Origin: an uncultured Caryophanales bacterium
GTDB taxonomy: Bacteria > Bacillota_I > Bacilli_A > RFN20 > CAG-449
NCBI GenBank assembly: GCA_945873815.1
Contig: CAMCEE010000008.1
Span: 1 to 64,000 of the forward strand
DNA length: 64,000 nucleotides
Direction of reading: 5' to 3'
This document shows positions 3,438-40,719 of the stretch, in pieces. A program made the position numbers and the translations under genes. The notes under the pieces were generated by a model. The model made no database searches and was not told the DNA's origin. It was given only the letters and a program-made list of their open reading frames with translations. How positions within the stretch are numbered: position 1 is the first letter of the stretch; every line of letters begins with the position of its first letter.

Positions 3438-6400
3438 TTATCCTCTCTTTCTCTTATATGTTTTAGCAACAACGAATGTTACTATAACAGCAATTAATGA
3501 TAGTGCAGATACAGCTGAATAAATTGCGATTAATGTAACTCTTGGAACATCAAAGATTGTTGATTGTCCACTACCACGGAATACCATCAAAGTGATTTGT
3601 TTTGCAAGTTCACCTTCTGAATAGACGTCAACTGTTACTCTATTACTACCCTTTTTAAGATTCTTTGCATTTTCACTGACGATATATTCGGTAGAATCAT
3701 TATCTGTTTCAAATGAAATATCTAATGAAGAAACAGAACCATCCACTTGATATGAATACACATCTACATCATTTGAATAATCATTTGCGAATTCACTGAT
3801 TTGAGAGATATTTGCAGAACTCAATTTAACTCTTTCTCTTTCTACATCAATAATGTAAATTGCTTTATTAATACCTAATGAAGATGTTGCAATAATAACA
3901 ACTGTATTATTACCAAATTTCAATCCATCATTTCCGATCACTTCGTATTTTGGTAAAGTTTCATCTGCTGAAATATCGAATGAAATATCGATATCAAGTT
4001 TCGTAACATTACTTTGAACGGTAATGCTATACTCAAATACGTCACTCTTGAAGTTGAGTGCAAATCCAGGAACTTGACCAATTGTAATACCACCAACATT
4101 AATATTATCTGTATTTCTAGTTTTTCTAGTAATATAAACCGTATAAAGAGTTGGTACTAAATCAGAATCATCTGGAATTGCATAAATACGAACTACGTTT
4201 TTATTAACACCAACCGATAATTTCTTTCCACCATCATAGAATATTCTAGCTGTGATAGTTGGATCGTATGTTTCTGCAGTAACATTAACTGAAGTAACTT
4301 CATAATTTACAACAACATAATATTCAAAGACGTTTTCATTGAATTGAATTTCTTGTCCATTTACATCTTGTAAAATATATCCATCAACATCGATATTACT
4401 TAATACTGGTTTATTTGATTGTCTTGTAATATTCAAAGTATAAATATCAAAATCACCATTTTGAGCAAATACAGTAATTGTAATAACGTTTACACCCTCA
4501 TTTAATGGAATTTGTGAACCATCTTTTTTTAAGTTATCGCCATTTGCAATAATACTATAACTTGACTCTTTACTTACAGGAGATACATTAATATCAATTG
4601 TTTTAACGCTATATGGTTTCTTAATATTATATGTAAACAATGTTGACTCAAAGTTATCAATTATTTCACCATTAATCTTAATATAACTAAGATGAGTTGT
4701 ATCATCTGCTAACTCTCTTGTAAATATGAATTCATACATTTTTCCTTGAATTCCTGATTGAGAAATCGCATAAACTGTGAAACCAACAGGGTCATTATTT
4801 GTAAATACAAATGTTTTTGTTTTTGTAGAAGTAGATGAATTATTTTCCTTGAAGAATACATTAGCATTTGATGTTACTGATACTGTAAACGATGTTATAA
4901 AATAAGGTAAAATATTATTCTTATACTCTAATGTTTCAACATCAAAATCAGTAGAAGAGAAATAAGTAACACCATCAGATCCAACAACTTCAATATTTGT
5001 TATTTCATTATCATTACTTAAATCAACGTTTTCTCTAGATACACTAATTCTATAATCATTAGTTACACCATTTTCAGCTGTGACTGTTATAGTTAAAAAG
5101 ATAACGTTACCACTAGCTAATTGACCACTAAATTTTGAAAGAGAAACTAAACCATAATCGCCAGAAAGAGTAGCTTTTGGACTATCTAATTGAGCATTAA
5201 TTCTAATTGAATTAGTTGTATCTTTTAAAACTAATACATAGTTGTTTAAGAATGAACTAAAGTTATTAATCAAATTTACTCCATCCTCAATAACTTCCAA
5301 TTCACGTAAATAATTATTTGTATCAACAGCTTCACGAATGATTTGAATTGTGTACGATGTACCTTTATCAAAGACTTCACTAGTAACATAAACAGTAATA
5401 GTATTATTACCTACATTTAAAGGTTTTGTACCTTCGCCAGTAATAGTACCGTATTGACCATCATAATCTACTTCAATCTCAACAAATTGTGTTTTATAAG
5501 GAACAGTAATTGCAGGATATGATGTAGTAGCAGAATTAAAGGTAAATTCATTACCTGAACCGAGGCCATTTATTCTAATATCTATAATAGTGTTCTTTCT
5601 TTCACCACAATAAATTGTTAACTTATAATTTTGGACAGCCCCATTTTCAGCATTAACAACGATTGTTTGTTCGTTTCTTCCACTTTGAATAGCCTTATAT
5701 CCTACACCTGAAGTAATAGTTGAGGTTGCCTCTTCAGTAGTAGCTCCAATTGTTACTCCTGGGGTACCATGTTGTACATAAACAGTATAATTATAAGTTT
5801 TAGATGAGAAACCATCTATTGGAGTACCATCTATAGTTATTTGAGATAAATAAACGTTGGATCCTGCAGCTTTTCTTTCAACATTAATTATATAAACAAC
5901 ACCCTTTTCACCAACTTCACTAGTTGCATAAACTTTAATTTGGTTAGTACCAATTTTTAAGTTTTCTGCACCTTCAATACTTACAGTACTATATACACTA
6001 GTCTTTGATACAAATAAAGTCAAAGAAGTAATAGTATAAGGAACTGTAAAAGTTGTATAATTCGTCGTTGCTTTATTGAATAAGAATGAATCTTCATCAA
6101 TATCTTCAATCGTAATATCATCAATACCATTTTCTGTATCACCAGTTAAAATGATTAATTTATAAGTTTTAATTGTTGCCGAGTCTTCAGCTAATACAGT
6201 AATATTAACTTCTTTTCTAACACTACTTATTGCAACAGACCAACTACCACCAGAAATAGAAACCGTAGATTTACTATCACTTGGAGTTGCAGCAACTGTT
6301 ATTCCCGTAGTACCGCGAGGTTTATAAACAGTATATTCTTCATCTTCACTATTGAATCCACTAATTGCAGTTCCATCAACTGTAATTGAACTTAATGTCG

Positions 6401-9400
6401 CATCAGTAGAAGCATTTTCTCTAGTAATTCTAATCTCATATCTATGAGTTTCATCACTCCCATCTGGTAATGCTACATAACAATAGAAAGTTCTTGTAGT
6501 GCCTGCAGCAATAGGATATGTTCCATGTCCGAACACAACATTATTTGAGCCAGTAGGCTTAGAAACAGAAATTGTTACACCAGTGACAGAAAATGGAATA
6601 GTGATTTCCACTGGAGCAAGATTGCTCTCATTAAATGTATAATAATTTACTCCGTTCGAACCAACTACTTGAATATCACTAATCTTTGGTGGGTCAGATT
6701 CAGTACTTGTTTCACGTTTAATTTTGATTGTATATGAAGTTCCAGCTTCTCCAACTTCATTTTCAATATATACTGTAATTGTTTTTACATTGCCAGAAGG
6801 AAGAGTTACCGTTGCACTTGAAGTACCAGTTGAACTAATCTCTCCAAATGATTCAGTGCCCTTAATTAATCCATATCTGGAATCAGTTGTAATAGAAACA
6901 GTTACATTAGATATAACGTATGGAACAACATATTCTCCTGTTGAAGGATATACTAGTTGTGAAGAGTTAAATGTAAAGCCATCAATTCCGCTAATCGATA
7001 TTGAGGTAATTGAGTTTTTTGTTTCTCCACGATATACAAAGAATTTGTATGATCTAAGTGAGCCACTTTCTGATCTTACCGAAATAGACATTTCGTTCTT
7101 ACCAATTGAAATAGCTATTCCATCACCTGAGTGACCTGAAATCACTGCTCTACTAGAATCACTAGCTAAAGTAGCTGCTATGTCTATAGAATCTGTATCA
7201 CGATCAACATATATTGACTCAGAATAAACGAGTGCCGTTGTACCAGAGAATTTAGACATATCTAAGGATTTAGTTCCAACTGTAATCGCAGATAGAGTAT
7301 TTCCAGTTTGAGGACTTTCTCTATTGATCACAATTGTATATTCTTTTCCTTTTTCTTTTGATTCACTAGTTGCATAAATCTTAAATGTTTTAGAACCACC
7401 TTGCAATAAAGCTTCTGGACCCGAAGGTACATTTACAACTGCGTGTTCATTTGCAGTAACAACATTGAATACTACATCTGAAACTTTGTAAGGCACGTTA
7501 ATATTATAGGTTGTAGTTATAGAATTAAATGTGAATGGGAATACATATGAAGAATCAATTGAAGTAGATAAAGTAATTGAAGTTATATCATTATTCCTAT
7601 CACCTTTAACAACATCGAAATAATAGGTTCTAATCGTACCACTTTGTGCTTGCACTTGAACAGATAATGTATTTGGTCCCATAACCAATGCTTCAGATGT
7701 TCCAGTACCAGACAAAATAGTTGCAGTTTGAGAATCAGCAGCTAATGTAGCCGCAATATTTACTGTAGAAACAGTACGATCAACATAAACCTTAGTCGTT
7801 GAAGTATAATTATTTCCATTTGCAGTAAACGAAGTTAATTCCTGACTACCAACTGTAATCTTATCAATATTACAATTTGTTGATGGAGCATTCTTAGTGA
7901 TTGTAAATGTATATTCTTTTCCTTTAACTCCGGATTGACTAGTAGCATAAATAACTACTGTATTTGTTCCAACAGATAATGTTTTATCTCCTGCACCAGT
8001 AATAGTTGAGTAATTTGAATTCTTAGTAACTTCAAAATAAATTCCTACAACACTATTTCCAACTGTTAATGAATAACTTTGTGTATTCTCATTGAATACA
8101 ATAGTATTACTATCAGTACCAACAATTGGATTTCCACCTTGTTTGTCCAATACTCTAATATTTGTAATCTTATTGTCTGTATCTTTTCCTTGTTGAATAT
8201 TAACTTGAATTTCTTTATAAGCAGTGCTTTGAGCAGTAGCTCTTACTCTAATATCAGTTGTAGGAATATTATATTCTTTAGAATCAGTTGCTACTGTATC
8301 AAATGTAATTACAGTAGTCGATGCATAATCAGTAACCTTAATTACTGCTTTACCAGCACTTGAAGGTAATTCATAATTAAAAACTGTTGATGTAGAAGAT
8401 GATGTCTTTGAATACTCTATTCCATCATTCTTACCAGTAACTGTAATAGTAAATTCAGTAGCATTATTTGGTTTATTTCTCGTAACATTTACAGTATATG
8501 TTTCAACGATACCAGAAGCACTTGTTACTTTAACTGTAACTGTACCAGTTTGTTCGTCATATCCAGAGAAAGTGAATGTCTTATTTGCAGAATAAGTAAC
8601 TGTAGCATCTTCATGAACCACTGCATTTACAGTAAAAGATGTAACAGTAAAATCTAATTTAGATGCAGCAGTATATGTATTACCACTCTTATTAAGAGTG
8701 ATTGCTTGGCCATCATTTGTAGTTGCAGTAATTGTTGCGCTTGCATCATCAGATAATTTGGAAACATGGAATGTATATGTTTTAGTAGAATTATCTTGAG
8801 CGGTAACAGTAATTGTAATATCTGAATTCAAATTAGTAACGTCAATTGTTCCTCCAGAAGCAACCGTAGTACCATTTACTTTTATGACCGCATTCGTATC
8901 TCCAATTATTGGACTAAATGTTAATTTACTCGTCGATTCAGAAATCTTAATAGTATATTCTGTCGTTGTTCCACTAAACGTTGCAGCTGCTGTACCACCT
9001 GCGTTAAATAATTTTGGATTAATTGCCGACCCAGTTTGAGTAATAGTCAATCCACTTAATGAATTTACATTAGATTTCGCCCTTGTAATATTTAACGTGT
9101 ATGTTTTCGTTGATCCATCTTGTGCTTCAACTACAATAGTTGCAGTCTTACTAGATCCAGTTACACCTAATGGAACAGAATAAATTCCTGAAGATGCTGT
9201 AATAGTATTACCATCAACAACAAAGGATTTAATCTTAGCTGTAGAATCATTTAATGTAACCTTAACATCTGCAGTAGCTTTCGTTGAATCCGTTGTTGTA
9301 GTCGTATATGTTGTCCCACTAGATGAAACAGCATTACCATCTACGGTAAGAGTCTTAATACTGTTATCAGAAGAACTTGCAACAAGAGGTACAGTTCCAG

Positions 9401-10742
9401 CAGCTTTTTCCACATTTATTTGACCTTTATCTGAAGTGTAGTCAGTACCATATTCGTATGTAAATGTAATATATAAAGTTTTAAATACTACATTCCCTTC
9501 TAATGTTGAAGGAATATCAAATGTCAATGTACCAATTTTACCATTTTTTATACCTAATTCATTAAATTCATCTGAAGAAATACCAATTGTGCTTAGATTG
9601 TTATTTATGTCATTCGTTTGTATACCTGAATCAATATTAGTATAATACATGTGCTCTGCTTCTTCATATTCACTTTCGTAAATTATTTCAGAATATGTAT
9701 ATTTCGGGTCTAAAAGATTTTCATTATCATTTGTCATTTCAAATGTATGTGTATATTCTACATTTGAGGTTTGGAAGTTTAAGTAAAAATAAAAATTAAC
9801 AGAACGGATAACATTAGATGTATTTTTAGAATAAAGATAAAAATCTACACTCCCTGTTGTTCCTTTTGCAAAAGTAGATGGAGCATCAATATACAAAGCA
9901 AATAATTCACTATCACCTAAATCGCTAGGATCAAACTCGCCACTTCCTGTTCCACCACTTGCTGAACTAGATGACGAATTACTAGATTCAGAGCTAGATG
10001 TGTTTCCACCACCGGAAGTACTACTGGAACTAGATGTTGTTCCACTTGAGCCTCCGCCAGTTGATCCGCTGCTAGACACTGATACAGTTCCAGAAGCTTT
10101 TTCCACATTTATATGACCTTTATCTGAAGTGTAGTCAGTACCATATTCGTACGTAAATGTAATATATAAAGTTTTAAATACTACATTCCCTTCTAATGTT
10201 GAAGGAATATCAAATGTCAATGTACCAATTTTACCATTTTTTATACCTAATTCATTAAATTCATCTGAAGAAATACCAATTGTGCTTAGATTGTTATTTA
10301 TGTCATTCGTTTGTATACCTGAATCAATATTAGTATAATACATGTGCTCTGCTTCTTCATATTCACTTTCGTAAATTATTTCAGAATATGTATATTTCGG
10401 GTCTAAAAGATTTTCATTATCATTTGTCATTTCAAATGTATGTGTATATTCTACATTTGAGGTTTGGAAGTTTAAGTAAAAATAAAAATTAACAGAACGG
10501 ATAACATTAGATGTATTTTTAGAATAAAGATAAAAATCTACACTCCCCCTTGTTCCTTTTGCAAAAGAAGAAGGAGCATCAATATACAAAGCAAATAATT
10601 CACTACTATTCAACGTCGGAGGAGTGACTTCGCGACGAATATCATCTCGTTTTCCCGATAAGTTTTGACCTACTCCAATTCCTACTCCAACTAATGCCAA
10701 TATTGCTAAAAGTGAAGTTATAAACTTTCCAAATTTTTTCAT
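3438..10742 (-). CDS. Membrane-anchored protein with two cohesin-like domains and about 20 cadherin-like repeats
   Basis: The product has 2,434 residues if translation starts at the ATG at 10742, which has GGGGGTAGG just upstream; an in-frame ATG five codons earlier (10757) is the alternative. Order: signal peptide (KKFGKFITSLLAILALVGVG), two nearly identical beta-rich domains (about 46-220 and 278-451) joined by a Ser/Thr/Gly linker, about 20 beta-sandwich repeats of 80-110 residues ending in a Y.I.I.R-type strand, then a transmembrane helix (about 2395-2420) and a KTYKRKRG tail. The N-terminal domains read like cohesins: an opening strand LFALYIDAP, the pattern VDFYLYSKNTSNVIRSVNFYF, and a late IGTLTFDIPSTLEG strand. 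The repeats fit the cadherin-like beta sandwich family (PF12733). No LPXTG signal is present, so anchoring is by the C-terminal helix. The role is inferred to be a cell-surface scaffold that binds the dockerin protein encoded upstream. The cohesin call rests on pattern and context only. Confidence 0.85.
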   Translation of the reverse strand: MKKFGKFITSLLAILALVGVGIGVGQNLSGKRDDIRREVTPPTLNSSELFALYIDAPSSFAKGTRGSVDFYLYSKNTSNVIRSVNFYFYLNFQTSNVEYTHTFEMTNDNENLLDPKYTYSEIIYESEYEEAEHMYYTNIDSGIQTNDINNNLSTIGISSDEFNELGIKNGKIGTLTFDIPSTLEGNVVFKTLYITFTYEYGTDYTSDKGHINVEKASGTVSVSSSGSTGGGSSGTTSSSSSTSGGGNTSSSESSNSSSSSASGGTGSGEFDPSDLGDSELFALYIDAPSTFAKGTTGSVDFYLYSKNTSNVIRSVNFYFYLNFQTSNVEYTHTFEMTNDNENLLDPKYTYSEIIYESEYEEAEHMYYTNIDSGIQTNDINNNLSTIGISSDEFNELGIKNGKIGTLTFDIPSTLEGNVVFKTLYITFTYEYGTDYTSDKGQINVEKAAGTVPLVASSSDNSIKTLTVDGNAVSSSGTTYTTTTTDSTKATADVKVTLNDSTAKIKSFVVDGNTITASSGIYSVPLGVTGSSKTATIVVEAQDGSTKTYTLNITRAKSNVNSLSGLTITQTGSAINPKLFNAGGTAAATFSGTTTEYTIKISESTSKLTFSPIIGDTNAVIKVNGTTVASGGTIDVTNLNSDITITVTAQDNSTKTYTFHVSKLSDDASATITATTNDGQAITLNKSGNTYTAASKLDFTVTSFTVNAVVHEDATVTYSANKTFTFSGYDEQTGTVTVKVTSASGIVETYTVNVTRNKPNNATEFTITVTGKNDGIEYSKTSSSTSTVFNYELPSSAGKAVIKVTDYASTTVITFDTVATDSKEYNIPTTDIRVRATAQSTAYKEIQVNIQQGKDTDNKITNIRVLDKQGGNPIVGTDSNTIVFNENTQSYSLTVGNSVVGIYFEVTKNSNYSTITGAGDKTLSVGTNTVVIYATSQSGVKGKEYTFTITKNAPSTNCNIDKITVGSQELTSFTANGNNYTSTTKVYVDRTVSTVNIAATLAADSQTATILSGTGTSEALVMGPNTLSVQVQAQSGTIRTYYFDVVKGDRNNDITSITLSTSIDSSYVFPFTFNSITTTYNINVPYKVSDVVFNVVTANEHAVVNVPSGPEALLQGGSKTFKIYATSESKEKGKEYTIVINRESPQTGNTLSAITVGTKSLDMSKFSGTTALVYSESIYVDRDTDSIDIAATLASDSSRAVISGHSGDGIAISIGKNEMSISVRSESGSLRSYKFFVYRGETKNSITSISISGIDGFTFNSSQLVYPSTGEYVVPYVISNVTVSITTDSRYGLIKGTESFGEISSTGTSSATVTLPSGNVKTITVYIENEVGEAGTSYTIKIKRETSTESDPPKISDIQVVGSNGVNYYTFNESNLAPVEITIPFSVTGVTISVSKPTGSNNVVFGHGTYPIAAGTTRTFYCYVALPDGSDETHRYEIRITRENASTDATLSSITVDGTAISGFNSEDEEYTVYKPRGTTGITVAATPSDSKSTVSISGGSWSVAISSVRKEVNITVLAEDSATIKTYKLIILTGDTENGIDDITIEDIDEDSFLFNKATTNYTTFTVPYTITSLTLFVSKTSVYSTVSIEGAENLKIGTNQIKVYATSEVGEKGVVYIINVERKAAGSNVYLSQITIDGTPIDGFSSKTYNYTVYVQHGTPGVTIGATTEEATSTITSGVGYKAIQSGRNEQTIVVNAENGAVQNYKLTIYCGERKNTIIDIRINGLGSGNEFTFNSATTSYPAITVPYKTQFVEIEVDYDGQYGTITGEGTKPLNVGNNTITVYVTSEVFDKGTSYTIQIIREAVDTNNYLRELEVIEDGVNLINNFSSFLNNYVLVLKDTTNSIRINAQLDSPKATLSGDYGLVSLSKFSGQLASGNVIFLTITVTAENGVTNDYRISVSRENVDLSNDNEITNIEVVGSDGVTYFSSTDFDVETLEYKNNILPYFITSFTVSVTSNANVFFKENNSSTSTKTKTFVFTNNDPVGFTVYAISQSGIQGKMYEFIFTRELADDTTHLSYIKINGEIIDNFESTLFTYNIKKPYSVKTIDINVSPVSKESSYSIIANGDNLKKDGSQIPLNEGVNVITITVFAQNGDFDIYTLNITRQSNKPVLSNIDVDGYILQDVNGQEIQFNENVFEYYVVVNYEVTSVNVTAETYDPTITARIFYDGGKKLSVGVNKNVVRIYAIPDDSDLVPTLYTVYITRKTRNTDNINVGGITIGQVPGFALNFKSDVFEYSITVQSNVTKLDIDISFDISADETLPKYEVIGNDGLKFGNNTVVIIATSSLGINKAIYIIDVERERVKLSSANISQISEFANDYSNDVDVYSYQVDGSVSSLDISFETDNDSTEYIVSENAKNLKKGSNRVTVDVYSEGELAKQITLMVFRGSGQSTIFDVPRVTLIAIYSAVSALSLIAVIVTFVVAKTYKRKRG
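9391..9912 (-). repeat. Second copy of duplicated cohesin-like cassette
   Basis: This 522-bp segment encodes the second cohesin-like domain. It aligns without gaps to 10084-10605, offset by 693 bp. I count about seven mismatches, or close to 99 percent identity. Changes at the protein level include KGTTGS versus KGTRGS, STFAKG versus SSFAKG and VEKAAGT versus VEKASGT. Confidence 0.95.
10084..10605 (-). repeat. First copy of duplicated cohesin-like cassette
   Basis: This is the N-terminal copy of the 522-bp unit also found at 9391-9912. The bases between the copies encode a low-complexity Ser/Thr/Gly linker. Such high identity within an otherwise diverged repeat protein points to recent duplication or ongoing gene conversion. 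Confidence 0.95.
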
Positions 10743-10814
10743 ATTTCCTACCCCCATAGATAATATTTCTGAATTTATACTTAAAAAATATTAGTTTTAA
10801 ACTATTATTTTTTC

Positions 10815-10853
10815 TTATTTTTTTTGCAATTTTATGATTACCCCTAATCTCAT
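10815..10853 (-). other. Possible leader mini-ORF or remnant start region
   Basis: A 12-codon frame (MRLGVIIKLQKK, then TAA) starts at 10853. Its start region, ATTATGAGA, three bases, then GGGGTAATCATAA, nearly repeats the start of the giant dockerin gene at 40427-40400 (same blocks, four bases between them). It is either a leader peptide of the cohesin gene or a leftover of an ancestral start that was copied together with the leader. No translation evidence is available. Confidence 0.35.
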
Positions 10854-10881
10854 AATCTCTTTCTCTTTCAAATTTTTAAGT

Positions 10882-10919
10882 TGTATAGTAATTATAATAC
10901 TATACACCTATTCTACCTT
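10882..10919 (-). promoter_or_regulatory. Candidate promoter and palindromic operator of the larger cohesin gene
   Basis: A perfect inverted repeat with nine-base arms, TGTATAGTA and TACTATACA, spaced by seven bases, spans 10882-10906. A perfect minus-strand -10 box TATAAT (10891-10896) sits in its centre. The -35 region about 17 bases upstream is weak (AAGGTA). The layout suggests a promoter blocked or controlled by a dimeric regulator, so the larger cohesin gene may also be transcribed separately from the upstream gene. Confidence 0.45.
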
Positions 10920-10982
10920 AACTATATCACACGATTTTTTCATTAACAATATTCAAAACCCCTTTTTTTGCCTTTTTTTTGC

Positions 10983-11002
10983 ATTATCCCCTTAAAAAAA
11001 CG
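10983..11002 (-). repeat. 20-bp leader repeat, copy in the intergenic region
   Basis: The minus-strand sequence CGTTTTTTTAAGGGGATAAT is identical over all 20 bases to 40645-40664 upstream of the giant dockerin gene. A looser copy lies at 40537-40554. Its position upstream of two surface genes suggests a shared regulatory element. Confidence 0.7.
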
Positions 11003-11025
11003 GGTTATATTCTATTTTTTTAAGG
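10990..11025 (-). terminator. AT-rich hairpin across the stop codon of the smaller cohesin gene
   Basis: Perfect 11-base arms, CCTTAAAAAAA and TTTTTTTAAGG, are separated by 14 bases and enclose the TAG stop at 11012-11014. The stem is almost entirely A/T and is not followed by a new T-run, so it is at best a weak terminator or attenuator between the two cohesin genes. Confidence 0.35.
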
Positions 11026-15919: not shown

Positions 15920-15920
15920 A

Positions 15921-33900: not shown

Positions 33901-36900
33901 CCATCACAATTTCTAAAGATATTATCGCCAAATAAAGTTGTCTTTGGCATATTGACTTTCTTTAATGCAGTACAGTTTTGGAAAGCACTAGCTCCAATAC
34001 TTGTTGCATTTGGTAATGATATTTCTTTAACCCAATACATTGATAAGAATGCATTAGCTGGAATTGCTGTTTGTGAGCAAATTGTAACTTTTTCAAGAGA
34101 TTTTGGAACAAGGAAATAATTTGATCCAGAATATCCACTAGATAAATATCTAGGATCATAACCATCAATTCCAGTAGTGTAATTGAATAGATAGCCTAGT
34201 ACAGAAGTATTTGTATGTCCTGCAAATGGCCATACTAATTCTTTTAAATATAAAGCATCACTTAAAATCCATGCATCGCTTGAAACTAGTGATGGTGACT
34301 CAACTACTAATTTTTCTAATTTAACATTTCCTCTAAATGAAGTTTGAGTTAATTTAGTAAGAGAAGGTAATGTAATCTCTAATTGACTATGACAATTTTG
34401 CCATACATAATCACCTAATGTCGTAACCGCAGAATAATTATTTGATGATAATAAATAGCAGTTTTGGAATACATAATTTCCCAATGTTGTTAATTCATTT
34501 GTTTCTGCAACTGTTTTTAATGAAACACAGTTTGCAAAAGCATAATTACCAATACTTGTGACTGCAGGTAATGAGATTGTAGGTAAATATCTACAATTAT
34601 AGAATGCATATGTTTTAATTGTGTATAAATTTGGAGCGATTACAGTAACCAAAGATTGATCACCTTCAAATGCATATGAACCTAAAGTGACTAGACCAGG
34701 CATATTTGCACTTGCAAGATTAATACAGCTTTGGAATGCATAATCTCCTATTTCTGTTGTTTCTTCTGGTAATACAATTTTTGTTAATTCTCTACATTCT
34801 GCAAATGCATAATTCTTGATTGTTGTTACACTTGTTGGAATAACAATTTCATGTAAATTTCTACATCTATAAAATGCTTTTTCAGAAATAATAGTTACAC
34901 TTGGTAAAGTTAATGTTTCAAGTCCATCACATTCTTCGAAGACTCTATCTCCGATAGTTGTTACCTTATCCATCTTAACTTTCTTTAAACCATCACAATT
35001 ATAGAATGCTAATTGACCAACTGTAGTTGCTTCAGATAATTCAATTTCTCTAACGTAATACAATGAATGGAATGTTTGTTCTGGAATTGTAGTTTGTCTA
35101 TTAATAATAACCTTATTCAATGATTTTGGTAACAAATAATAGGATGAACCAGAATATACACTAGATAAATATCTTGGATCTGTTTCTCCAATACTAGTTG
35201 TATTATTGAATAATACTCCTAAGTAACTAGAAGCACCTGTTTGAACGCCAGTTCCTGAGAAAGGAACGGATAGTGTATTTAAGTAATAACAAGATTGTAA
35301 GAACCAAGCAGGTAAAGAAGTAATTGCTTGTGAAGTAATATATAATTCTTCTAATTTATAATGATGGAAGAATGCGCCAGAACTAATTGTAGTTACAGAA
35401 GGTAAATGCATAACTAATAATGAATAACAATTTTGGAATGCATAATCATTTATAGTTGTAACTGCAGAGAAATTATCGCTCGATAATGAAATACAATTAC
35501 TGAATGCATAAGCACCGATGATTGCAAGATTATCTGTATCTTCAATAGATACTAATCTCGTACAATTTTGGAATGAACTTTCACCAATCTCTGTGACTTT
35601 TGGCATTGAAATTGTAATAAGTGCTTCACAACCCTTAAATGCATTAGCACCAATCTTTTTAACATTTGGAATCGTAACATTCTTTAATGCTGTGGATCCA
35701 TTAAATGTATCTGAACCAATTTCAATAGCTTTAGGTAGATTTACTGTTTCTAATTTTACACAGTTTGCAAAAGCATTATTACCAATAGTTGCAATACCTT
35801 CAATAGTAATTTCTTCTAATCTATAACATTCAGCAAAGACAAAGTTACCAATTTTTGTAACTGATGATGGAATCGTAACATTTACAAGCTTATCACATTT
35901 TGAGAATGCATAATTGTCAATTGTCAATACTGAAGTAGGGATTGTAATCTTTGATAATCTATTACAGTCATAGAATGCTTTTTCACTAATAAGTGAAACA
36001 TTTGGAATAACAACTTCAACTAAAGAATCACAATCTTCAAATACTCTTGTACCGATTGTAGAAACTTTTGCCATCTTGACAGATTCAAGTGCTTTACATC
36101 CATAGAATGCAAGAGTTCCAATTGAAGTTGCCTTCAATAATTCAACTTCCTTAAGCATACTCATGTTCATGAATGCAAAAGCAGGAATTGTAGTTTGACT
36201 ATTTATAATAATCTTTTCTAATGTTTTTGGGAAAGAATATGTTTCTGAAGTTGAATCATAATTTTGTGTTCCCAAATATTGATTCTCATTTGCAGAAGAA
36301 CGAGGATAGAATGAAGAACCCATTCTACTTGCTCTACCGGTTGCATCACCATTTCCAACAAATGGAACATTTAATACTCTTAAATAATCACAATCCATCA
36401 AATACCAATATGGAAGAGAAGCAATCGGAGAAGTGATATTTAATACTTCTAATTTATAATGTCCTCTCAATGCATTTCCATCAATAACAGAAAGACTTGG
36501 GAAAGACAATGTAAGTAAAGAATGACAGTTATTGAATGCATAAGCTCCTAATTTTGTTACATTAGCAAAATTATCGCTATCTAATTCATAGCAATTTTCA
36601 AATGCATTATTACTGATTTCACTTAATGAATCAGTATTATTTAGTTTTACTAATGATTGACAATTTTGGAAAGCATAAGATCCTAATTTAGTTACGCTTG
36701 GGATTGAAATTGCAGTTAATCGATTAGCATTTTGGAATGCATAATTTCCAATTAATACTGTATTTGGAATCAATACTTCTTGCAATCTTGTACATTGACT
36801 AAATGAGTATGTTTTTATCTCAGTAACACCAGGTAAAGAGATTGATTCTAACGAATAACAATTATAGAACGCATAATCTCCAACAGTTGTAACTCCTTCA

Positions 36901-39900
36901 GGAACTATTACTTCTTTTAAGCCACGGCAATCATAGAATGCTTTATTTCCGATAGAAGTTAATAATGCAGGAAGAGTAATGCTTTCTAAACGATCACATT
37001 CTTCAAATACTCTATCTCCCATTGTAGAAACATTATTCATAGAGACTGTTTTTAATGTATCGCAATTAAAGAATGCAAGTTCTCCAATACTTGAAGCCTC
37101 AATTAATTCAATTTCAATAATTCCTGTCATATTTTGGAATGCATAAGCAGGAATTGCAGTTTGTCTATTAATAATAATCTTCTTTAATGTCTTTGGGAAA
37201 TATGTTGTAATAGAATAATATGTACTTCCACCACTAGACCATGTATATGGTTGAGAAGCACCCCAGACATCATTTGGATATGGATTATTTGTTTGATTTG
37301 CAAAAAGTGAACCCATCGTGCTACCATTACCAGTTTCAGATCCAGCTCCTACAAAAGGAGTAGAAAGGATCTTAAGATATGGACATTGTAATAACATCCA
37401 ATGAGGTAAAGAGGTAATTGTCGATGTAATATATAATTCTTCAAGATAAGTATGTCCATAGAATGATTGTGGATAAAGAGTTACAATTGAAGGTAATTCA
37501 ATAACTTTTAACGATCTACAACCATTAAATGCATATGTATCGATTAAAGTAACTGAACTGAAATCAACACTAGATAACATCGTACAATTATTAAATGCAT
37601 AACTACCAATATTTGTTAATAATGAAGTACTTGTTAATGATTCTAGAGAGTTACAACCATAAAATGCTTCATTACCAATCTTTGATAATTTTGGTAAATC
37701 CAATGTCTTTAAATAAATACAATTTCTAAATGATCTTAATCCAATTGTTGAAAGTAAAGGTAATTCTAAAGTATTTAAATACGTACATCCATCAAATGCA
37801 TAATCACCAATTGTATCTACGTTTGGTAGTTCAAATTCATCTAATGAATAATCGTTTTGGAAGACATAAGTTTTAATTGTAGTTAATTTAGGAGCAACAA
37901 GGCTACGTAAATTCATACATTCTGCAAATGCATAGTCTTGAAGTGTGACAACATTTGGTAATGTAAGTGTTTCTAAACGATCACAACTATAGAATGCTTT
38001 ATTGCCAACTTCTTTACAAGTTGCTGTTACAATAACATTCTCTAAATAGTCACAATCATAGAACATTTGTGAGGAAATAGCATTTAAAGCAGGAAGACTT
38101 ACTGTTCTTAATGCATCACAATTATAGAATGTACTAGCTCCTACAGATGCTAATTTATTAGCAGTTACTTGAATAAGATTCGTACATCCATTAAAAGTTT
38201 CAGAAGCAGCGCTAGTTGCATTTGTTAATTCAACTTTCTTCAAGCTTGTCATATTTCTGAATGCATAATCAGGAATTGTAGGTTGTCTATTAATAATAAT
38301 CTCGGTTAAGGAGTTAGGAATGTAGTATGTTCCTCTTGCTTGGTTAGCCGCATAATAATATCCACTAGCAGCATTACCAGAAGAAATAATTTGACCAATT
38401 ACACTTGTATCTCCTCCGGTACCTGCGTATGGAACAGAGATCTTTCTTAATAAATAACATCCATAGAATAAATCGCTAGGAAGTGAAGCAATATTAGAAG
38501 TAATATAGACTTCTTCTAAACGGTTACAATCTCTGAATGATGTACTAGTTAATTTTGTAATTGCTGGAAGAGTCAATGTTTTTAAGGAATAACAATATCT
38601 AAAAGCGTACTCTTGAATTGTATTAACTTTTTTAAAGTTATCTGATTTTAACGCATAACATGCGTTGAATGCGTATTGATCAATCATAGTCAATGCATTT
38701 GTATCGTTTACTGTCTCTAATTTATAACAATCCGAGAATGCATATTTTCCTATAGATGCGACTTTTGGTAAAGATATAGTAATCAAATTACCACAATATC
38801 TAAATGATTCCTTACCAATTGAAGAAACTTCAGGAATATTAACATCAGTTAATAATTCACAATAATAGAAAGCATTATCACCAATCGACATACATTTTGG
38901 AAGATCAATACTCTTAAGGAAATTACAGCCGGTAAAAGCAAATTGACTTACAGTTGTAACTCCAGGGAAATATAAATTATCCAACATCTTACAACCAGAG
39001 AATGCATAATCTTTGATTGATTTTAAATTATCAGAAACAATAACATTTGTTAAATAATCACAATGTTCGAATGTTCTAGCAGTAATCTCAACTAAAGAAG
39101 GTAATGAAATTGTATTCAACCCATCACAATTATAGAATGTGTATGTTCCTAATAAGTTAGTAACTTTTTCCATCGAAACATTTTTTAGTCTGGAACAATT
39201 ATAGAATGCTTGATCACCAATTGTAGTTGCACTTTCTAAAACAATAGTTTCAACGTATTGCATATTATAGAATGCATAAGCTGGAATTGCTGTTTGTGAA
39301 GTAATAGTAATCTTCTTTAATGAGAAAGGAAGAGTATAATTACCAACAGATTGTCCAATATAATACCATTCATTTGCTGTACCAGCATTACCATTAATAA
39401 ATAGAGCACCCATTGAAGAACCAGCACCCGTTGCAGCACCTGTTCCAACAAATGGAATAGTTAATTCTTTTAATGATCTTAACGATTTAAAAATATTAGC
39501 AGGTAAACTTGAAATCGAATTTGATGCGATATGAAGTGTTTCAATTCCATATGCACAGTTAAATGCGTTTGCATCAAGAGTTGAAATCTTTGGTAAAGCA
39601 AGTTCTTTTAACGAATTACAATTATAGAATGCATTTGCTTCGATTGTTAAAACGCTTTGACAAATATCAGAATTGAACAATGTACAATTATAGAATGCAC
39701 TTGCTTTAATCGTTTCAACATTTTCAGCACCTTCCATTGTCCTTAGGTTTGTACAACCATAAAAAGCAGAAGATCCGATTGTTACTAAATTTGATACACC
39801 ATTAACAGTCTTAAGATTTGTACAGCCTTGGAAAGCTGAAGTTCCAATTGAAAGAAGGGAATTTGCAGAAGGGACTGCTTCAAGGGATGTGCAGTTGTAA

Positions 39901-40424
39901 AATGAACTAGCACCGATAGTTTTGATATTTGTGAAATCTTCAATAGTCTTTAGTTTTGTACAACCATAGAATGCTTTATCACCAATCTCAGTAATTGTTT
40001 TTGGCAAAATAACTTTTTCAAGATTTGTCATTCCTTGGAAACCAGATGTATTGATTCCAACAACTGGAAGATTTGTTTCTCCATAAGTACTTGGAATTTC
40101 AATCTCTGTAATTGCATTTGCTGTTTTAACATCTGCCTTGATTGAGAAGAGCCATCCATCAACTGAACTTGTGAACTCACCGATTGTTTCATCTGCAACA
40201 ACTGATTTTACATTATCACGACTAAAAGCTGCCTCAAAGTGCACTTCATTGTCTTTATTATTTTTTGTTGCTTCTACTACGTTATCAAGACGATTAACGT
40301 AAGTATCGACAATATGGTTTGTCAGGATGCCTCCAAGTAAGAATGTAGCGCATGCTGCCATGGTCAGTTTAATTGTCTTCACTAACCCGAAATTTGATAT
40401 CTTATGATTACCCCTTTTTCTCAT
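15921..40424 (-). CDS. Giant LRR/Ig-like surface protein with C-terminal dockerin
   Basis: The product has 8,167 residues (roughly 0.9 MDa) from the ATG at 40424, which has GAGGGG seven bases upstream; a TTG start 11 codons earlier (40457) is less likely. Order: basic N-terminus and a hydrophobic export segment (TIKLTMAACATFLLGGILT); BspA-type LRRs (LRR_5/PF13306 style, AFYNC.SL followed by a hydrophobic strand) over about residues 90-5150; a linker of about 330 residues; Ig-like and MBG-like repeats (YTG...P.F and VGT..V.I.G.GNYTG) over about 5480-7990; then a dockerin at 8111-8165. It has no LPXTG and no C-terminal membrane helix, so surface retention through the dockerin is the likely solution, with the two downstream cohesin-like proteins as partners. 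LRR proteins of this type usually bind host or bacterial surfaces. It heads a co-directional operon (one-base gap to the next gene). A zinc-ribbon-like Cys cluster interrupts the Ig-like part. Confidence 0.93.
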   Translation of the reverse strand: MRKRGNHKISNFGLVKTIKLTMAACATFLLGGILTNHIVDTYVNRLDNVVEATKNNKDNEVHFEAAFSRDNVKSVVADETIGEFTSSVDGWLFSIKADVKTANAITEIEIPSTYGETNLPVVGINTSGFQGMTNLEKVILPKTITEIGDKAFYGCTKLKTIEDFTNIKTIGASSFYNCTSLEAVPSANSLLSIGTSAFQGCTNLKTVNGVSNLVTIGSSAFYGCTNLRTMEGAENVETIKASAFYNCTLFNSDICQSVLTIEANAFYNCNSLKELALPKISTLDANAFNCAYGIETLHIASNSISSLPANIFKSLRSLKELTIPFVGTGAATGAGSSMGALFINGNAGTANEWYYIGQSVGNYTLPFSLKKITITSQTAIPAYAFYNMQYVETIVLESATTIGDQAFYNCSRLKNVSMEKVTNLLGTYTFYNCDGLNTISLPSLVEITARTFEHCDYLTNVIVSDNLKSIKDYAFSGCKMLDNLYFPGVTTVSQFAFTGCNFLKSIDLPKCMSIGDNAFYYCELLTDVNIPEVSSIGKESFRYCGNLITISLPKVASIGKYAFSDCYKLETVNDTNALTMIDQYAFNACYALKSDNFKKVNTIQEYAFRYCYSLKTLTLPAITKLTSTSFRDCNRLEEVYITSNIASLPSDLFYGCYLLRKISVPYAGTGGDTSVIGQIISSGNAASGYYYAANQARGTYYIPNSLTEIIINRQPTIPDYAFRNMTSLKKVELTNATSAASETFNGCTNLIQVTANKLASVGASTFYNCDALRTVSLPALNAISSQMFYDCDYLENVIVTATCKEVGNKAFYSCDRLETLTLPNVVTLQDYAFAECMNLRSLVAPKLTTIKTYVFQNDYSLDEFELPNVDTIGDYAFDGCTYLNTLELPLLSTIGLRSFRNCIYLKTLDLPKLSKIGNEAFYGCNSLESLTSTSLLTNIGSYAFNNCTMLSSVDFSSVTLIDTYAFNGCRSLKVIELPSIVTLYPQSFYGHTYLEELYITSTITSLPHWMLLQCPYLKILSTPFVGAGSETGNGSTMGSLFANQTNNPYPNDVWGASQPYTWSSGGSTYYSITTYFPKTLKKIIINRQTAIPAYAFQNMTGIIEIELIEASSIGELAFFNCDTLKTVSMNNVSTMGDRVFEECDRLESITLPALLTSIGNKAFYDCRGLKEVIVPEGVTTVGDYAFYNCYSLESISLPGVTEIKTYSFSQCTRLQEVLIPNTVLIGNYAFQNANRLTAISIPSVTKLGSYAFQNCQSLVKLNNTDSLSEISNNAFENCYELDSDNFANVTKLGAYAFNNCHSLLTLSFPSLSVIDGNALRGHYKLEVLNITSPIASLPYWYLMDCDYLRVLNVPFVGNGDATGRASRMGSSFYPRSSANENQYLGTQNYDSTSETYSFPKTLEKIIINSQTTIPAFAFMNMSMLKEVELLKATSIGTLAFYGCKALESVKMAKVSTIGTRVFEDCDSLVEVVIPNVSLISEKAFYDCNRLSKITIPTSVLTIDNYAFSKCDKLVNVTIPSSVTKIGNFVFAECYRLEEITIEGIATIGNNAFANCVKLETVNLPKAIEIGSDTFNGSTALKNVTIPNVKKIGANAFKGCEALITISMPKVTEIGESSFQNCTRLVSIEDTDNLAIIGAYAFSNCISLSSDNFSAVTTINDYAFQNCYSLLVMHLPSVTTISSGAFFHHYKLEELYITSQAITSLPAWFLQSCYYLNTLSVPFSGTGVQTGASSYLGVLFNNTTSIGETDPRYLSSVYSGSSYYLLPKSLNKVIINRQTTIPEQTFHSLYYVREIELSEATTVGQLAFYNCDGLKKVKMDKVTTIGDRVFEECDGLETLTLPSVTIISEKAFYRCRNLHEIVIPTSVTTIKNYAFAECRELTKIVLPEETTEIGDYAFQSCINLASANMPGLVTLGSYAFEGDQSLVTVIAPNLYTIKTYAFYNCRYLPTISLPAVTSIGNYAFANCVSLKTVAETNELTTLGNYVFQNCYLLSSNNYSAVTTLGDYVWQNCHSQLEITLPSLTKLTQTSFRGNVKLEKLVVESPSLVSSDAWILSDALYLKELVWPFAGHTNTSVLGYLFNYTTGIDGYDPRYLSSGYSGSNYFLVPKSLEKVTICSQTAIPANAFLSMYWVKEISLPNATSIGASAFQNCTALKKVNMPKTTLFGDNIFRNCDGLETISLPNVAIIPANAFYDCNGLKEVIIPNTVTAINASAFYNCTFLTSVTIPASTVTIGESAFHYCKALTSVNILGSATLGTNAFRYCFNLATVTMPKAIEVGSYSFAYCYNLTTVSMPLVKKINTYGFSNCTMLSTISVPSVTELCDYAFTGCTQLVSIEDTDCLTTLGSYAFQTCKMLASDNFANVTTMKDYVFENCDALQVLHFPLLTTMTSNSLRNHTKLEELYITSKMTTFPAYYLYSNTYLRILSVPVVGLGAETGYGSVMGSAFANEAGSGATYSAVQRYDSTSATFRFPKTLELITINTQTGIQKFAFENMAFVDEIELTKAVTIKDYVFVGCTKLQLVTMPKVTSIGTYAFQECDSLVEVILPSVTTISNYSFYGCDNLYKVSLPEGLTTIGNYAFYNCPKLPTLIFPATLASIGEHAFEKCVNLKVPSLKNLTVIGKYAFTGCNSINNITIQNVKTVANNAFENCLGLEKVTFINDDNSTILEASAFENCPRLYTVSLGGVNAIGDNCFERCNELLSVTDTEALQTIGVQSFIYCYSLKNIEFENVLKIGDNAFHSCFALTHVELPSITTLSNSALRNMPTLEYLSISSQITSLPANMLAESLYLKELVLPFVGNNAASGAGSRMGYILHANTGSLGDADPRYLADGYWVPKTLTKITILYQTSIAGSAVRDFYYLKEINFNEATSIGELALYNCIRIKTINMPKVTTMGNRVMEECDELETIELPQLSNIPQKTFYHCNNLKNVIVPESITTVNDNAFAYCPLLKSIELPCVTSLGANVFNYCVQLVNVDAPLLVTIGTYAFSYCEDLVTLSIPSVTTLGTYAFNYCTSLVALTNTGNLTTLGAYAFNNCYSFSSDCFSAVTSIDDHVFNGCNSLLRLSFPAVTTIHNDAFKGHQKLEILKITSSIANVPYWMLAENVYLKEIEMPFTGRGDSSGQGSVMGSLFNTGSSNTATQFTGSQAYTGGSNYYLFPKTLKRITICKQATIPTNAFQNMKGIEVVSLPKATSLGNYAFDGCSNLRRVDMPKVSTIGTYSFRECDTINTITIPSVTTISDFAFYGCNGLMYVTVPECVTTIGVSAFENCTSLVEMTLPKVRIINNSAFKGCTNMTSFEAPNANTIGDYAFRENNSLETVSIPRAVTIGTYAFANALNLKTIDISSVTTLGTYAFQLCRDLETIDVPSLVTIGDFAFSDCTSLVSVTNTNKLTTIGEQAFVNCFVLSNIKFDEVTTIGRYAWYNCYNLLNISLPSVTSLHSEAFRGHVNLEYVSITSNITALTPWLFVDNVYLIEVNVPFVGTGATSGYVTSMGSLFNTGGSGQDDTRYASYVYSSSTYYIIPKSLEKITINRQTTVYANAFRGFKFLRYVELPEVTIINDAAFYDCYNLLDIDMPRVSTMGASVFQNCYGFRTITLPDVTTIGTSAFENCTGLQEVIIPNTVSTINSYAFKNCTGLQEITFPDSVIAFGEYVLQGCSSLETVTLPILGSSNTVDSGASNSVFGFIFGRTAYAGSYAAASYYTASAQVTNYIPKSLKNVIITNETIIPYGCFMGCVEIENIDLNTSAVDVREKAFSVSLSAVNTKVNVYVPNKGLHDLMVTNPNLYGLERPDQVLDTKIIYNKVYDKNWTFVGYELAHVAFESATSYRVAAEFKNKPVLRIGEEVFKGMVQLETIELPSCLEKIGVSAFEGCTSLAHIMTYQVLDDSVVEEKMPNNLKEVANNAFYECVSIGNQTFPEAFEVIGDYAFYGCEGFTAINLENTSVVSIGKYAFAECANVASVLLPDTLKTIGEKAFDNCNLVEDVVIPSSVLSIGEGALANWSSLQTLSVPFVGGSYKYETDREKKSANFGYIFGTTMFENSEATVQKNGYTNQMIPYYVPISLKTINVTNARSIPFGAFMNCRNVTSINVEGDITVINDETFRNCESVLSIELPATVTSIGVDILKGCASIKSLVVPFVGASAENDVEGATTLGYFFGTYAYEGGYEAAQNTSLTTKVSYYIPNTLKTVEVLGVAGAKSEYELPVGAFMNCSNVSQIILPNTLRILGNYSLYGLSLSSLDSLKVLSKVGGTVTVGDSVEKIGAYALKGLDKNAQGLVVPNTVTVIGEGAFNNWDSLSSIQIPFVGERSDIRTVLSRNDSSKGDYLVTTNAINNTCNSSSYQEIFAYIFGTLPFDGAISTAQLSASEKTYNAYVPGSLVDVNVTSDDMLILYAGAFMNCTNIKDLSLPNSITRIEDYALYNTGIENLNDTNISSDEEGASVVRDNVEFIGSFALASAMKNTILVVPSSVTNIGTGALSKWASLTSIELPFAGTKATGKLLDSEKEFATIFGDTAYATTALTPSGEYYYPKSLKNITINGGDIYEITLSGYETIVEVTLGDDVEIYGVSTFKDCTKLASVRLPNSLALINKSMFMNCVSLTAIDIGPHVSTIANEAFRECTSLETVNFSSEGNLHTIGDYSFYNTAITNEDYTFIVPEGVESIGAHSFENSGKNINNVVLPSSLILVGEASFGGWKQMKKINVPFIGLQEYDAISYDADKHISNPNEGRSIFARIFGNEEINSSLFYRVDFSYLNENEELIDSYAYLPLSLTEVVVEKGVVDYNAFKNAYSLKKVTLPSGTVEVGERAFEGCQLLNTVNNMDAVNNINTAAFKGCTSLKSLPSMTAIKNIEREAFAESGLLSIDLTQYELLSTIGTKAFASTCSSQIELVIPNTVTFVGKGAFNGFSSLATIETRLDNVVLSDMFGSESFTNSVKATKKDGTINYVPASLDTVIISGGTNVSAYALYNCGNVTTVDFNSQEITSIGEKAFANTGLTAIEVPISVTEIGYASFNGCNSLEEMVLPFVGKTALEETNTETSVFGYIFGYTTTGTPSTNANTIQYQLIDDEMVAYGEENPRYYEVPSSLQYITIAGDSLGIELADCALAGLKVESLVLENVTRVGSYALYSTIGNLVFNNEVEFARTGDLGAVRNAIINFRYSEDIIENNFLLALTEESKISGKVYPSNFITLDNYAAEYLAERVYFDQGVYVLKLSYKYSIGDTFSMDNVTPYVYDYKNNSRIYFDAANSTFTSVDNGSTIDQNKKVIRMFIDGKHSSAGFKSISRLSTSFLINTEKMKIIVGDEIRIHIGQSIAEGFDFEDYDGQFASEEEMALRVTLEAMINGTRLIQTASSSSIILGEAELAQLESEGEVTFENVLVDNNRFRLFKWNTNSSFYEVDIDYVIEYTNANHTTNVHVTKRVIDASLNGTVVEYDGTKHSIEFNLAKKYDSTSFTITYVVKDNEGKVLASTSVLPSFINVGEYNYTITLSKENFSTLELKDKLTITPRRIYITIDENQGKSFEGADPKITYKASYDELGEELLTGTELSSLIAGEITREEGEAAGNYAYITDTLILLDSKNYELVINDHSENFFRIAQADLGDTTIVIGAEYEYTSERITPEFVVRKNSDAYTVDPSQYDVLWNNNINVGTASVTVLAKDGSDYFGSNSKTFEIIPIHLTTLNTQVVLETEEYVYTGSEICPIVSMVRVYTNAQKTKYIDLTLKDYEISYDNNLNAGIGNVIITGKNNCQGEVVKNFVIDKKELVEDGEGLQILKIRNQTYKAEDLTPDISIFYNGLSLFNEIDYVLTYSNNRYVGTATVTIQGIGNFCGGFEKQFTILPADVADIKFEATAIAPYTGRETSVSIKKFTVAGNDVSLDTNDYEISYTTEDRISVGIVKFTVTGRNNLEGFRKENLVYQIVNGNFTQSDVEVVGSYVYTGEVIKPTLSVVFSGVELSENVDYRLEVFNGVNVGEAIVKVYGMGNFDSEDYITVFFNILPRDLEDVHIEYNDSFIYSGGNVNLEAVLTFNGLTLSFGTDFIIDAAGKSAGNHFATFIGKGNYTGEVSKPYFIEQYEITTDDEIYAKSQKYTGEYLNPIVIIRDINRNTLIQGVDFNVEYMPGSDGTSLTTQYIMITGCGNYKGTIEDIQFEITDVEIDPSSVTLENDRFTYSGREIHAKVNVVVDGTKLIEGVDYTLIYDNCLNVGTANVKVIFTKYAGTITKEYTIAPYVLSTSDTIIFENAYDYIGEVPDFQLEIRDRILNLLELNKDYTIEASGKNNGVHSLRINGQGNYSGSITLTYSIGSGELLDLSIVKTANSYSYSGSEIAPKFKLMYGDLQVEASRIEYYLEESCETLLTGTPINAGKYFFKVYCDDPNIMSSAISSYEISRRDITGLTAALSQTEYVYSGSVNEPTAEVSNIYGTVTYDMEYSNNINIGTATATIIGTGNFTGSITKTFTIKALDLSSEDVVVTINKTLNRYNPFSSNNNLPVVTVNGAEINILNNNFVLEIVEKTTLDKVLFKDFNGNVGEYQIIVSGSNENVTGSKTFDYMITPITITEEDNLERGYKGVYTYTGEEMTFEDIVLKHRASGEIYTLQLGVDYVFEYDDAINVGTNKLLKVNGIGNFNGRILLRYSITPEGGVVVEGDWTFELLAEDYEYTGSPIEPQFNLYFGDILFEEGYTIEYFSDPELLNSLGNTAPTNVGTYYFIVTTGGQNVVSHQFERRCFMISPASLADFNVRASLTNGGKYIYHSAGQTFDDLVVRDAHDNVLVKDIDFVLSVDNYNVGKNKLLYIDGINNYTGQTVTLFDILVHDINRCAECGTELENGKCPECGEECDNRIEVGGTSDINPNDIRDCFPPITIDGITYEFPYNDCPFDIIIVTPNGERLTPQEIIDRGLEDLITGDYKVIISSPEDDGNHGGEIEIPFEIKKHTLTIDDLVNEEYLGVYSFTGETPSFSDIRIVVNGTELVRDVDYTVTTKDKPTVGTNKIVTVSAIGELYEGQFDLTYRINSYDVNNPDTPAFDESKLKLTLTKTNYTYNGRAIAPQFTISYNGTNIDDGYTVSYYLDSEYTNGIGTETPVDAGRYYFSVTTHGKSIPISTLRSEFTIDQLSLAEDGTRVSLEQTEYDYTGMLPEFVGLEIVDAHGNVLTEDDYSLSVSDFNVGTDKVLTILGIGNYTDGTSIRFSILKYDISQDETITISPEAIELSLLEVKNNFPTLFVGNEQYEFPYKDSDLSVSVAFPNWTTVTSSELETIKVSDMVVGSYVLKVQGSNANYGGLKKFPFEIQPITITSEAYSKIEYNGDYAFTGSEPLFDDVFLTIQDYDLIRNVDYTIVADQDVSIGDNKIAIVRGMGRFTGEFELPYRILESGIDPSLLSLEFTKQKYTYNGSPLAPEFVVKYNGVQLEGDNIVTYFSDEGYVGSLGTTPPKDVGTYYINVKTTGSIKTSVRGSYTISPEVLSNGKGTVEMAQEQFYYTPNPLGPDFSGITIVDQYGNTLVKDVDYVITAADFEVGNGKPLTISGIGNYSGSITNKTFDILPIDLNAVTNEKPVISLEAGSSEITFDPSNITKNFPTISVAGFAHEFPYDDIDLMFDIKGPDNLSLAIEDIKLMNPKELTLGGYTLTVRASDTNANFSGEKTLQFNINKYELSSNNIGEGFVGEYEYTGSHPSFEDLKIYVSDVELIINTDYEIVINEGTTVNPGMNKELTIRGIGDFYSGEFVVTYKVTSVAGEIDPNNIELVIEDETIVYSKEAKEPRLSFLLNGVPVEDQYSIRYFTDEIHETEVDAAIDAGTYYITVEFGGLIFENTVELLGQFVIEKEEVTISAKDLVTTYGDTVTDLNSQWEAIVGQVYGNDIEAVVTTTAGEKANVGEYELNIEVSEGADKNYIVTLRKGKHSVVKKDIDLTVAVDHQTIMEGGTLDNITYTMVSNGFVEGENTSSLVFTPGTILYQGSGDTVYPTSEVAPTDFGTYEIIMDRETTTVTSQNYNVTNLTINPGQLIIAKASLLSLTAETDFGIVKLVKSGPRWKYTYVKDHTEYDPENIPVIHITQQKMTVNTLLTHFNSVDTANIRIYNAKGSLVKSTYYGNPRYIVGTGWKIELLSGETVIDAFYLSLTGDFNGDGVVAKRDVNDLFSAISKPCSNAVLYACDINSDLKLTSADINLLASMINQMNK
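15927..16093 (-). other. Type I-like dockerin domain of the giant protein
   Basis: Two calcium-binding F-hand loops are visible: DFNGDGVVAKRD and DINSDLKLTSAD. Both keep the Asp/Asn at positions 1, 3, 5 and 12 of the canonical D.N.DG....D loop, and helices such as VNDLFSAI and INLLASMINQ follow. Just upstream lies the common pre-dockerin strand segment (IRIYNAKG, then VGTGWKIELLSG). Dockerins bind cohesins, and cohesin-like domains are encoded in the next two genes. Confidence 0.88.
16900..23950 (-). repeat. Ig-like/MBG-like repeat array inside the giant gene
   Basis: About 28 beta-sandwich modules of 70-90 residues are encoded here. Typical signatures are YTYNG..IAP.F, DVGTYY..V and IGNYTG. 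In the C-terminal half four module types alternate in a fixed order, so the signature EY.G.Y.FTG..P.F.D recurs near 20730, 19630, 18540 and 17460, a period of about 1.09 kb. The last modules resemble MBG domains (TTYGDTVTDLN). Confidence 0.85.
25000..40150 (-). repeat. LRR array with regular insert modules inside the giant gene
   Basis: About 15 kb of roughly 70-base units encodes LRRs of about 23 residues. The array is broken 18 times by an insert of the form VPF.G..G..S.MG.LF, a variable Tyr-rich stretch, then FPK.L.KI.INRQT.IP..AF. The first ten inserts are spaced about 1.05 kb apart (near 39.4, 38.4, 37.3, 36.3, 35.2, 34.2, 33.1, 32.0, 31.05 and 29.95 kb); later ones are closer and more diverged. 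Confidence 0.9.
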
Positions 40425-40685: not shown

Positions 40686-40719
40686 AAAAAAAAGATTCTG
40701 ATGACTAAGCACCAGAATC
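40686..40719 (-). terminator. Rho-independent terminator after psuG
   Basis: On the minus strand a ten-base-pair stem (GATTCTGGTG pairing with CATCAGAATC, one G-T wobble) with a six-base loop CTTAGT is followed by eight T residues. It ends the marR-ABC-ABC-psuG operon and separates it from the giant surface operon. Confidence 0.9.

Follow-up and report, generated by a model that had tools for sequence, protein, structure and literature searches.

The window, by which we mean the whole 64,000-nucleotide stretch analysed here, belongs to a genome of 1.8 Mb, and five of its minus-strand genes run head to tail from 40457 to position 2, where the contig ends inside the last of them. A giant surface protein (P0003) is followed by two stalk proteins, P0002 and P0001, then by a membrane protein of GGDEF/EAL type, and finally by a secreted-looking fragment that shows a beta-helix-like pattern and has no Pfam match (Table 1). 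A terminator-like hairpin (40719-40694 on the coding strand; one found upstream of the giant against 0.2 expected) marks the upstream border of the run and the likely operon start. According to the original prediction the giant and both stalks form one operon. The spacing of the first two genes agrees with this, the start of P0002 lying 1 bp past the giant's stop codon; however, 254 bp containing a promoter-like site, itself not above chance level, separate P0002 from P0001, so that a single operon is likely but unproven as to P0001.

Table 1. Positions in the window of the giant gene, its neighbours and the features they contain
Feature	Position	Strand	Remarks
Terminator-like hairpin upstream of giant	40694..40719	-	10 bp stem, T8
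P0003, giant surface protein	15921..40457	-	8,178 aa
P0003 pre-dockerin module, aa 8037-8118 (~80 aa)	16104..16349	-	profile match E 5.3e-8
P0003 dockerin type I (PF00404)	15936..16097	-	two Ca-binding loops
P0002, stalk/receptor	11012..15919	-	1,635 aa; after the signal peptide two N-domains and 8 detected PF12733 stretches; membrane helix at the C-terminus
P0002 N-domain 1, putative divergent cohesin	15380..15832	-	profile match
P0002 N-domain 2, putative divergent cohesin	14885..15361	-	similarity to P0001 domain only
P0002 C-terminal membrane helix	11087..11161	-	
P0001, stalk/receptor	3438..10757	-	2,439 aa; after the signal peptide two N-domains and 14 detected PF12733 stretches; membrane helix at the C-terminus
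P0001 N-domain copy 1	10077..10604	-	nine-stranded in the AlphaFold2 model; cohesins lead its PDB matches
P0001 N-domain copy 2	9384..9911	-	97.9% DNA identity to copy 1
P0001 C-terminal membrane helix, then KTYKRKRG	3465..3539	-	
Membrane GGDEF/EAL-type protein	1237..3432	-	731 aa; EAL catalytic residues lost
Secreted-looking protein fragment	2..1210	-	cut by contig end

P0003 begins with a signal- or anchor-like N-terminus, continues with about 5,000 aa of BspA-type LRR_5 repeats and a long series of Ig/MBG-like repeats, and ends in a pre-dockerin module and a dockerin. Pfam detected 34 LRR_5 stretches in its N-terminal half and 8 in its C-terminal half, and no enzyme domain. Its mass computed from the Met at 40424 is 897 kDa, matching the earlier figure of roughly 0.9 MDa. 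The dockerin scored 30 bits (E 1.2e-6) in the search of the genome, above the Pfam cut-off of 22.9, while a scan of the 4,099-aa C-terminal half alone gave 21.2 bits, below the cut-off. Both loops, DFNGDGVVAKRD and DINSDLKLTSAD, carry D/N ligands at n, n+2, n+4 and n+11; the domain may bind a cohesin in a calcium-dependent manner. It is the sole dockerin that the profile search found in the genome. The module before it was recognised by a profile of class sequences that excluded the window, and module and dockerin can therefore be regarded as a class-wide unit. At the C-terminus we found neither an LPxTG-type signal nor a membrane helix, and sortase (PF04203) was not detected in the genome by a search that was positive in control genomes. 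The description of P0003 as a giant that ends in a dockerin and has no sortase signal or membrane tail thus stands, and the protein probably functions as an adhesin.

The next two genes on the same strand had been described as encoding signal peptides, cohesin-like domains, cadherin-like stalks and C-terminal membrane helices. Most of this architecture was found: both proteins have a signal peptide, PF12733 cadherin-like stretches detected by Pfam, and a C-terminal membrane helix with a basic tail. The label "cohesin-like", on the other hand, received no support from sequence. The Pfam cohesin family PF00963 had no match in P0001, in P0002 or elsewhere in the genome, the P0001 N-terminal domain (N-domain) gave no Pfam match even at E 10, and a phmmer search of PDB sequences with the N-domains returned no match. 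When the window N-domains were compared with cohesins of the class by hhalign, one run reached P 0.0096, which was not above stalk-piece controls; we discarded this signal because the stalk controls scored equally well or better.

The two N-domains of P0001, which are joined by a Ser/Gly-rich linker, differ at only 11 positions in 528 bp of DNA (window 9384-10604), so that a putative cohesin has recently been either duplicated in tandem or copied by gene conversion. An N-domain profile found four clear copies in the genome, all within P0001 and P0002, and no convincing copy among 146 relatives. Since the genome has one dockerin and all four copies sit in two adjacent genes, chance can be excluded as the explanation of this placement. 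No dockerin over the cut-off was found among the 97 relatives searched, the operon was missing from the close relatives sampled, and two scans of genome collections turned up neither relatives of the window N-domain nor any of a related stalk. Two loci that had appeared as weak matches (L006 and L008) were set aside as chance; they proved to be a peptidase and an Ig-like protein that is not related.

Structure prediction, the check proposed with the original prediction, was more informative for P0001 than for P0002. The AlphaFold2 model of P0001 residues 52-227, built on a 3-row alignment, is a nine-strand sandwich (pLDDT 74.6, pTM 0.76), and cohesins have nine strands. When the model was compared by Foldseek with 350,542 PDB chains, cohesins were the top two and the most numerous matches: the best was the Ruminococcus flavefaciens ScaC cohesin 5lxv (E 4.9e-5), the second the Clostridium perfringens cohesin 2vo8 (E 1.1e-4), and the further C. 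perfringens cohesins 2jh2, 2w1n and 2o4e were within the top 17. The support for a cohesin fold of the P0001 N-domain is good but not conclusive, because the RMSDs against most cohesins are large (4.5-5.9 A) and the model is matched as well by the CARDB domain 3idu and by other sandwich folds. For P0002 the model of domain 1 was too poor to judge the fold (pLDDT 62.7) and matched nothing in Foldseek; this domain is called a putative cohesin solely from its identity of about 21% to the P0001 domain. The P0002 domains are presumably cohesins as well.

A dockerin encoded beside a cohesin-like fold whose closest structural match is the ScaC cohesin could also point to a cellulosome-like, polysaccharide-degrading complex. 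With a single dockerin and no Pfam cohesin genome-wide, we rejected this interpretation; P0003 has no detected enzyme domain, the genome lacks an array of dockerin-bearing enzymes, and such a complex appears extremely improbable. The same models bear on a second alternative, in which the N-domains serve the stalks as adhesive tips of Ig/CARDB-like type, the stalks are independent adhesins sharing the operon, and the giant's dockerin docks elsewhere, that is, on another cell, in the matrix or in a dockerin-dockerin contact. The window N-domains do lack sequence support as cohesins, CARDB and other sandwich folds do match the P0001 model, and the poor P0002 domain-1 model matches nothing, all of which would suit adhesive tips, but the two best and the most numerous structural matches of P0001 are cohesins, and no other cohesin was detected in the genome for the dockerin to meet.

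If dockerin genes are wired to adjoining membrane-anchored cohesins, the pairing should recur across the class. Among 395 genomes of the same class, Pfam cohesins occur in 60 and dockerins in 106, and 31 of the 81 Pfam cohesin matches, from 28 genomes, have a dockerin 105-154 bp upstream of them, on the same strand but in another ORF. We surveyed the next gene at 79 dockerin loci of the class, taking one dockerin per genome. At 52 loci it encodes a protein composed of a signal peptide, an N-domain, cadherin-like domains and a C-terminal membrane helix, at a distance of about -4 to +30 bp from the dockerin gene, and the N-domain is a recognisable cohesin in 27 of those 52. For two loci Pfam confirmed Cohesin and Cadherin-like in the gene that follows the dockerin gene; another pair (G371) has a Glucosaminidase domain on the dockerin protein and a Cadherin-like domain in the next gene. 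The window locus fits this class pair, its dockerin-ended gene being followed by a gene for a signal peptide, N-domain, cadherin-like domains and a C-terminal transmembrane helix.

In the other 25 of the 52 receptors (e.g. L155, L157 and L160) the N-domain is shorter and Ig-like in appearance. Such domains may be degenerate or shrunken cohesins, another dockerin-binding domain, or unrelated domains; gene position alone therefore does not prove a cohesin fold, and the argument that the same position means a cohesin is weakened. That half of the class receptors carry N-domains that do not look like cohesins is also what would be expected of adhesive tips. Nevertheless, 27 of the 79 loci have a recognisable cohesin on the same stalk-and-anchor plan with a near-zero gene gap, and we consider independent adhesive stalks unlikely. 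The recurrence across the class is stronger support for docking of the giant on the stalks than the window's own domains are, and because related bacteria repeat the gene arrangement many times, it looks like a general surface-anchoring device, not a digestive machine.

Other arrangements were seen in the class as well. Three loci (L089, L092 and L094) encode a protein with three N-terminal cohesins, a small lipoprotein-like protein and then a dockerin protein of ~2,400-2,500 aa; the three-cohesin proteins of L092 and L094 end in a membrane helix, and the dockerin protein of L092 is a subtilase that carries RCC1 and Ig-like repeats. At L096 (G384:C10) a cohesin and two dockerin matches lie within one 5,415-aa open frame, which suggests self-assembly or chaining.

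The plan of the window is repeated by 13 other dockerin-ended giants, with open frames of about 4,400 to 16,300 aa. For nine of them (G183, G203, G189, G255, G162, G219, G225, G360 and G243) the direct next gene encodes a signal peptide, N-domain and cadherin stalk. Seven of these stalks have a C-terminal membrane helix and measure 2,613-4,167 aa; those of G189 and G219 are represented by partial sequence only. A second LRR giant that has no dockerin is inserted between giant and stalk in four cases (G307, G331, G343 and G348). The dockerin-ended open frames there reach 16,337 aa (G343:C3), 16,208 aa (G307:C8), 12,480 aa (G331:C4) and 10,680 aa (G348:C32), each followed by a dockerin-less LRR giant of ~5,600-5,850 aa. 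The LRR and dockerin ends of the f27 giants and the C-termini of their stalks can be aligned with the window proteins. N-domain profiles of the other giants gave no match to the window N-domains, and the fold of the N-domain was computed for the window proteins only.

The gene that follows the stalks in the window encodes a 731-aa protein in which EAL residues are lost (DDFG to NNFG, and EGV to KNI in KNID) and in which Pfam did not recognise the GGDEF region. At four f27 loci a protein of ~1,000 aa encoded directly after the stalk is homologous to it (E about 1e-30), over the EAL region and a C-terminal domain of ~170 aa. Three of these f27 loci (G307, G343 and G348), and also G371, retain intact EAL catalytic residues, which are partly lost in G331. 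The five strongest matches of the C-terminal domain all fall within dockerin-giant loci, and the sixth-best match of its profile, G371 of another family, immediately follows a truncated cadherin stalk that has a membrane helix; this was a blind check of the linkage between stalk and EAL protein, and it came out positive. We rejected the C-terminal domain as a specific marker, since it occurs in many unrelated loci and proteins of the order. At f16/f21/f28 loci a shorter post-stalk protein has weak EAL/GGDEF similarity, according to Pfam on one of them. The giants of these families at L115, L116, L117, L118, L119 and L120 have a conserved trio after the stalk gene, namely a weak GGDEF/EAL membrane protein, an AAA-like membrane protein of ~500 aa (about 49-68% identical between loci) and a DUF2357 protein of ~600 aa.

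These neighbours could mean that the giant and the stalks form a coat or a stretch sensor that is read inside the cell by the degenerate GGDEF-EAL protein, an apparatus of envelope assembly or sensing in which adhesion would be secondary. The gene immediately behind the stalk does encode a GGDEF/EAL-type protein in the window, at four f27 loci and at G371, and a weak, degenerate one accompanies AAA-like and DUF2357 neighbours in six f16/f21/f28 loci; however, the link between stalk and EAL protein is putative and the C-terminal domain of the latter is found in many unrelated loci as well, and we regard this function as very unlikely. Sensing of c-di-GMP by the EAL-type protein is put forward as a hypothesis only. 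It is conceivable, though doubtful, that the conserved locus of dockerin giant, cohesin-cadherin stalk and degenerate GGDEF-EAL protein is an undescribed, sortase-free display system in which c-di-GMP controls assembly or retention of the giant.

Taking together the gene order, the domain architecture, the dockerin, the stalks and their membrane helices, the absence of a detected sortase, the predicted fold of P0001 and the recurrence in the class, we think it likely that the giant is docked at the surface, via its module-dockerin, by membrane-anchored cohesin receptors on cadherin-like stalks. The giant would be secreted and, since it lacks both a membrane anchor and a sortase anchor, would be held non-covalently: its C-terminal module-dockerin would plug into a divergent cohesin carried on the tip of either membrane-anchored cadherin-like stalk, and the LRR/Ig-like body, thereby held far from the cell, would presumably bind other cells or host material. 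The proposal that the stalk proteins are membrane-anchored dockerin receptors is supported by the P0001 fold and the class-wide survey of dockerins and receptors, and we infer that the giant's dockerin binds these N-domains. If docking holds, many members of a class with small genomes would hang proteins on the membrane via cadherin-like stalks, with cargo ranging from ~600-aa wall hydrolase-like proteins to giants whose open frames reach about 16,000 aa. It would explain how an anchor-less giant stays on a cell with no detectable sortase, would offer a reservoir of divergent cohesin-dockerin pairs, and would make control of giant display by a c-di-GMP-type protein testable.

Cohesin-dockerin pairing is known mainly from cellulosomes, the cellulose-digesting enzyme complexes. 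As in the anchoring of cellulosomes by Ruminococcus champanellensis DocB:CohE (PMC7456326) and R. flavefaciens ScaE/ScaC (PMC5429695), where surface anchoring holds cells under shear, the C-terminal module-dockerin of a large protein would plug into a cell-surface cohesin. Unlike here, the known CohE is bound to peptidoglycan by a covalent link and carries an enzyme scaffold; in the window the receptor is a transmembrane cadherin-like stalk and the cargo an LRR giant, with no enzyme array and no detectable sortase. In C. perfringens, cohesin-dockerin complexes join secreted enzymes and toxins to each other, and we know of no membrane stalk, giant adhesin or operon of the window's plan among them. 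The window resembles them in its non-cellulosomal, small-scale pairing, and the P0001 model has cohesins of C. perfringens among its best structural matches. These toxin/glycosidase complexes are those of Adams et al. 2008, cited in PMC5429695, and single-binding-mode surface dockerins outside cellulosomes have also been described (PMC5429695).

Closer in proposed function are ANME archaea and syntrophic sulfate reducers, for which a role of cohesins and dockerins in adhesion has been proposed (PMC10553843), and Omnitrophota, in which a giant ORF has dockerins (PMC10066038); as far as the available parts of these two papers go, the likeness covers the adhesion proposal, adjacent cohesin and dockerin domains and a dockerin giant ORF. 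LRR giants, PF12733 stalks, the class-wide next-gene arrangement and the GGDEF-EAL neighbour are unreported in those parts of PMC10553843 and PMC10066038. A literature search that covered few subscription papers found none joining cohesin, dockerin, cadherin-like and leucine-rich repeat, and none joining cohesin, dockerin, glucosaminidase and membrane-anchored. The LapA/LapD system of Pseudomonas has a giant adhesin with a genetic link to a degenerate membrane protein of GGDEF-EAL type; LapA stays attached through a retention module of its own and is cut by LapG. The locus of the window giant likewise holds a GGDEF/EAL-type membrane protein, one that has lost its EAL catalytic residues, but LapA is anchored differently, with no dockerin or cohesin. 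The original prediction knew of no described system of this exact make-up, a claim that has to be narrowed: cohesin-dockerin use outside cellulosomes is already known, its use in adhesion has been proposed before (PMC10553843), and the window is an extreme member of a class-wide arrangement.
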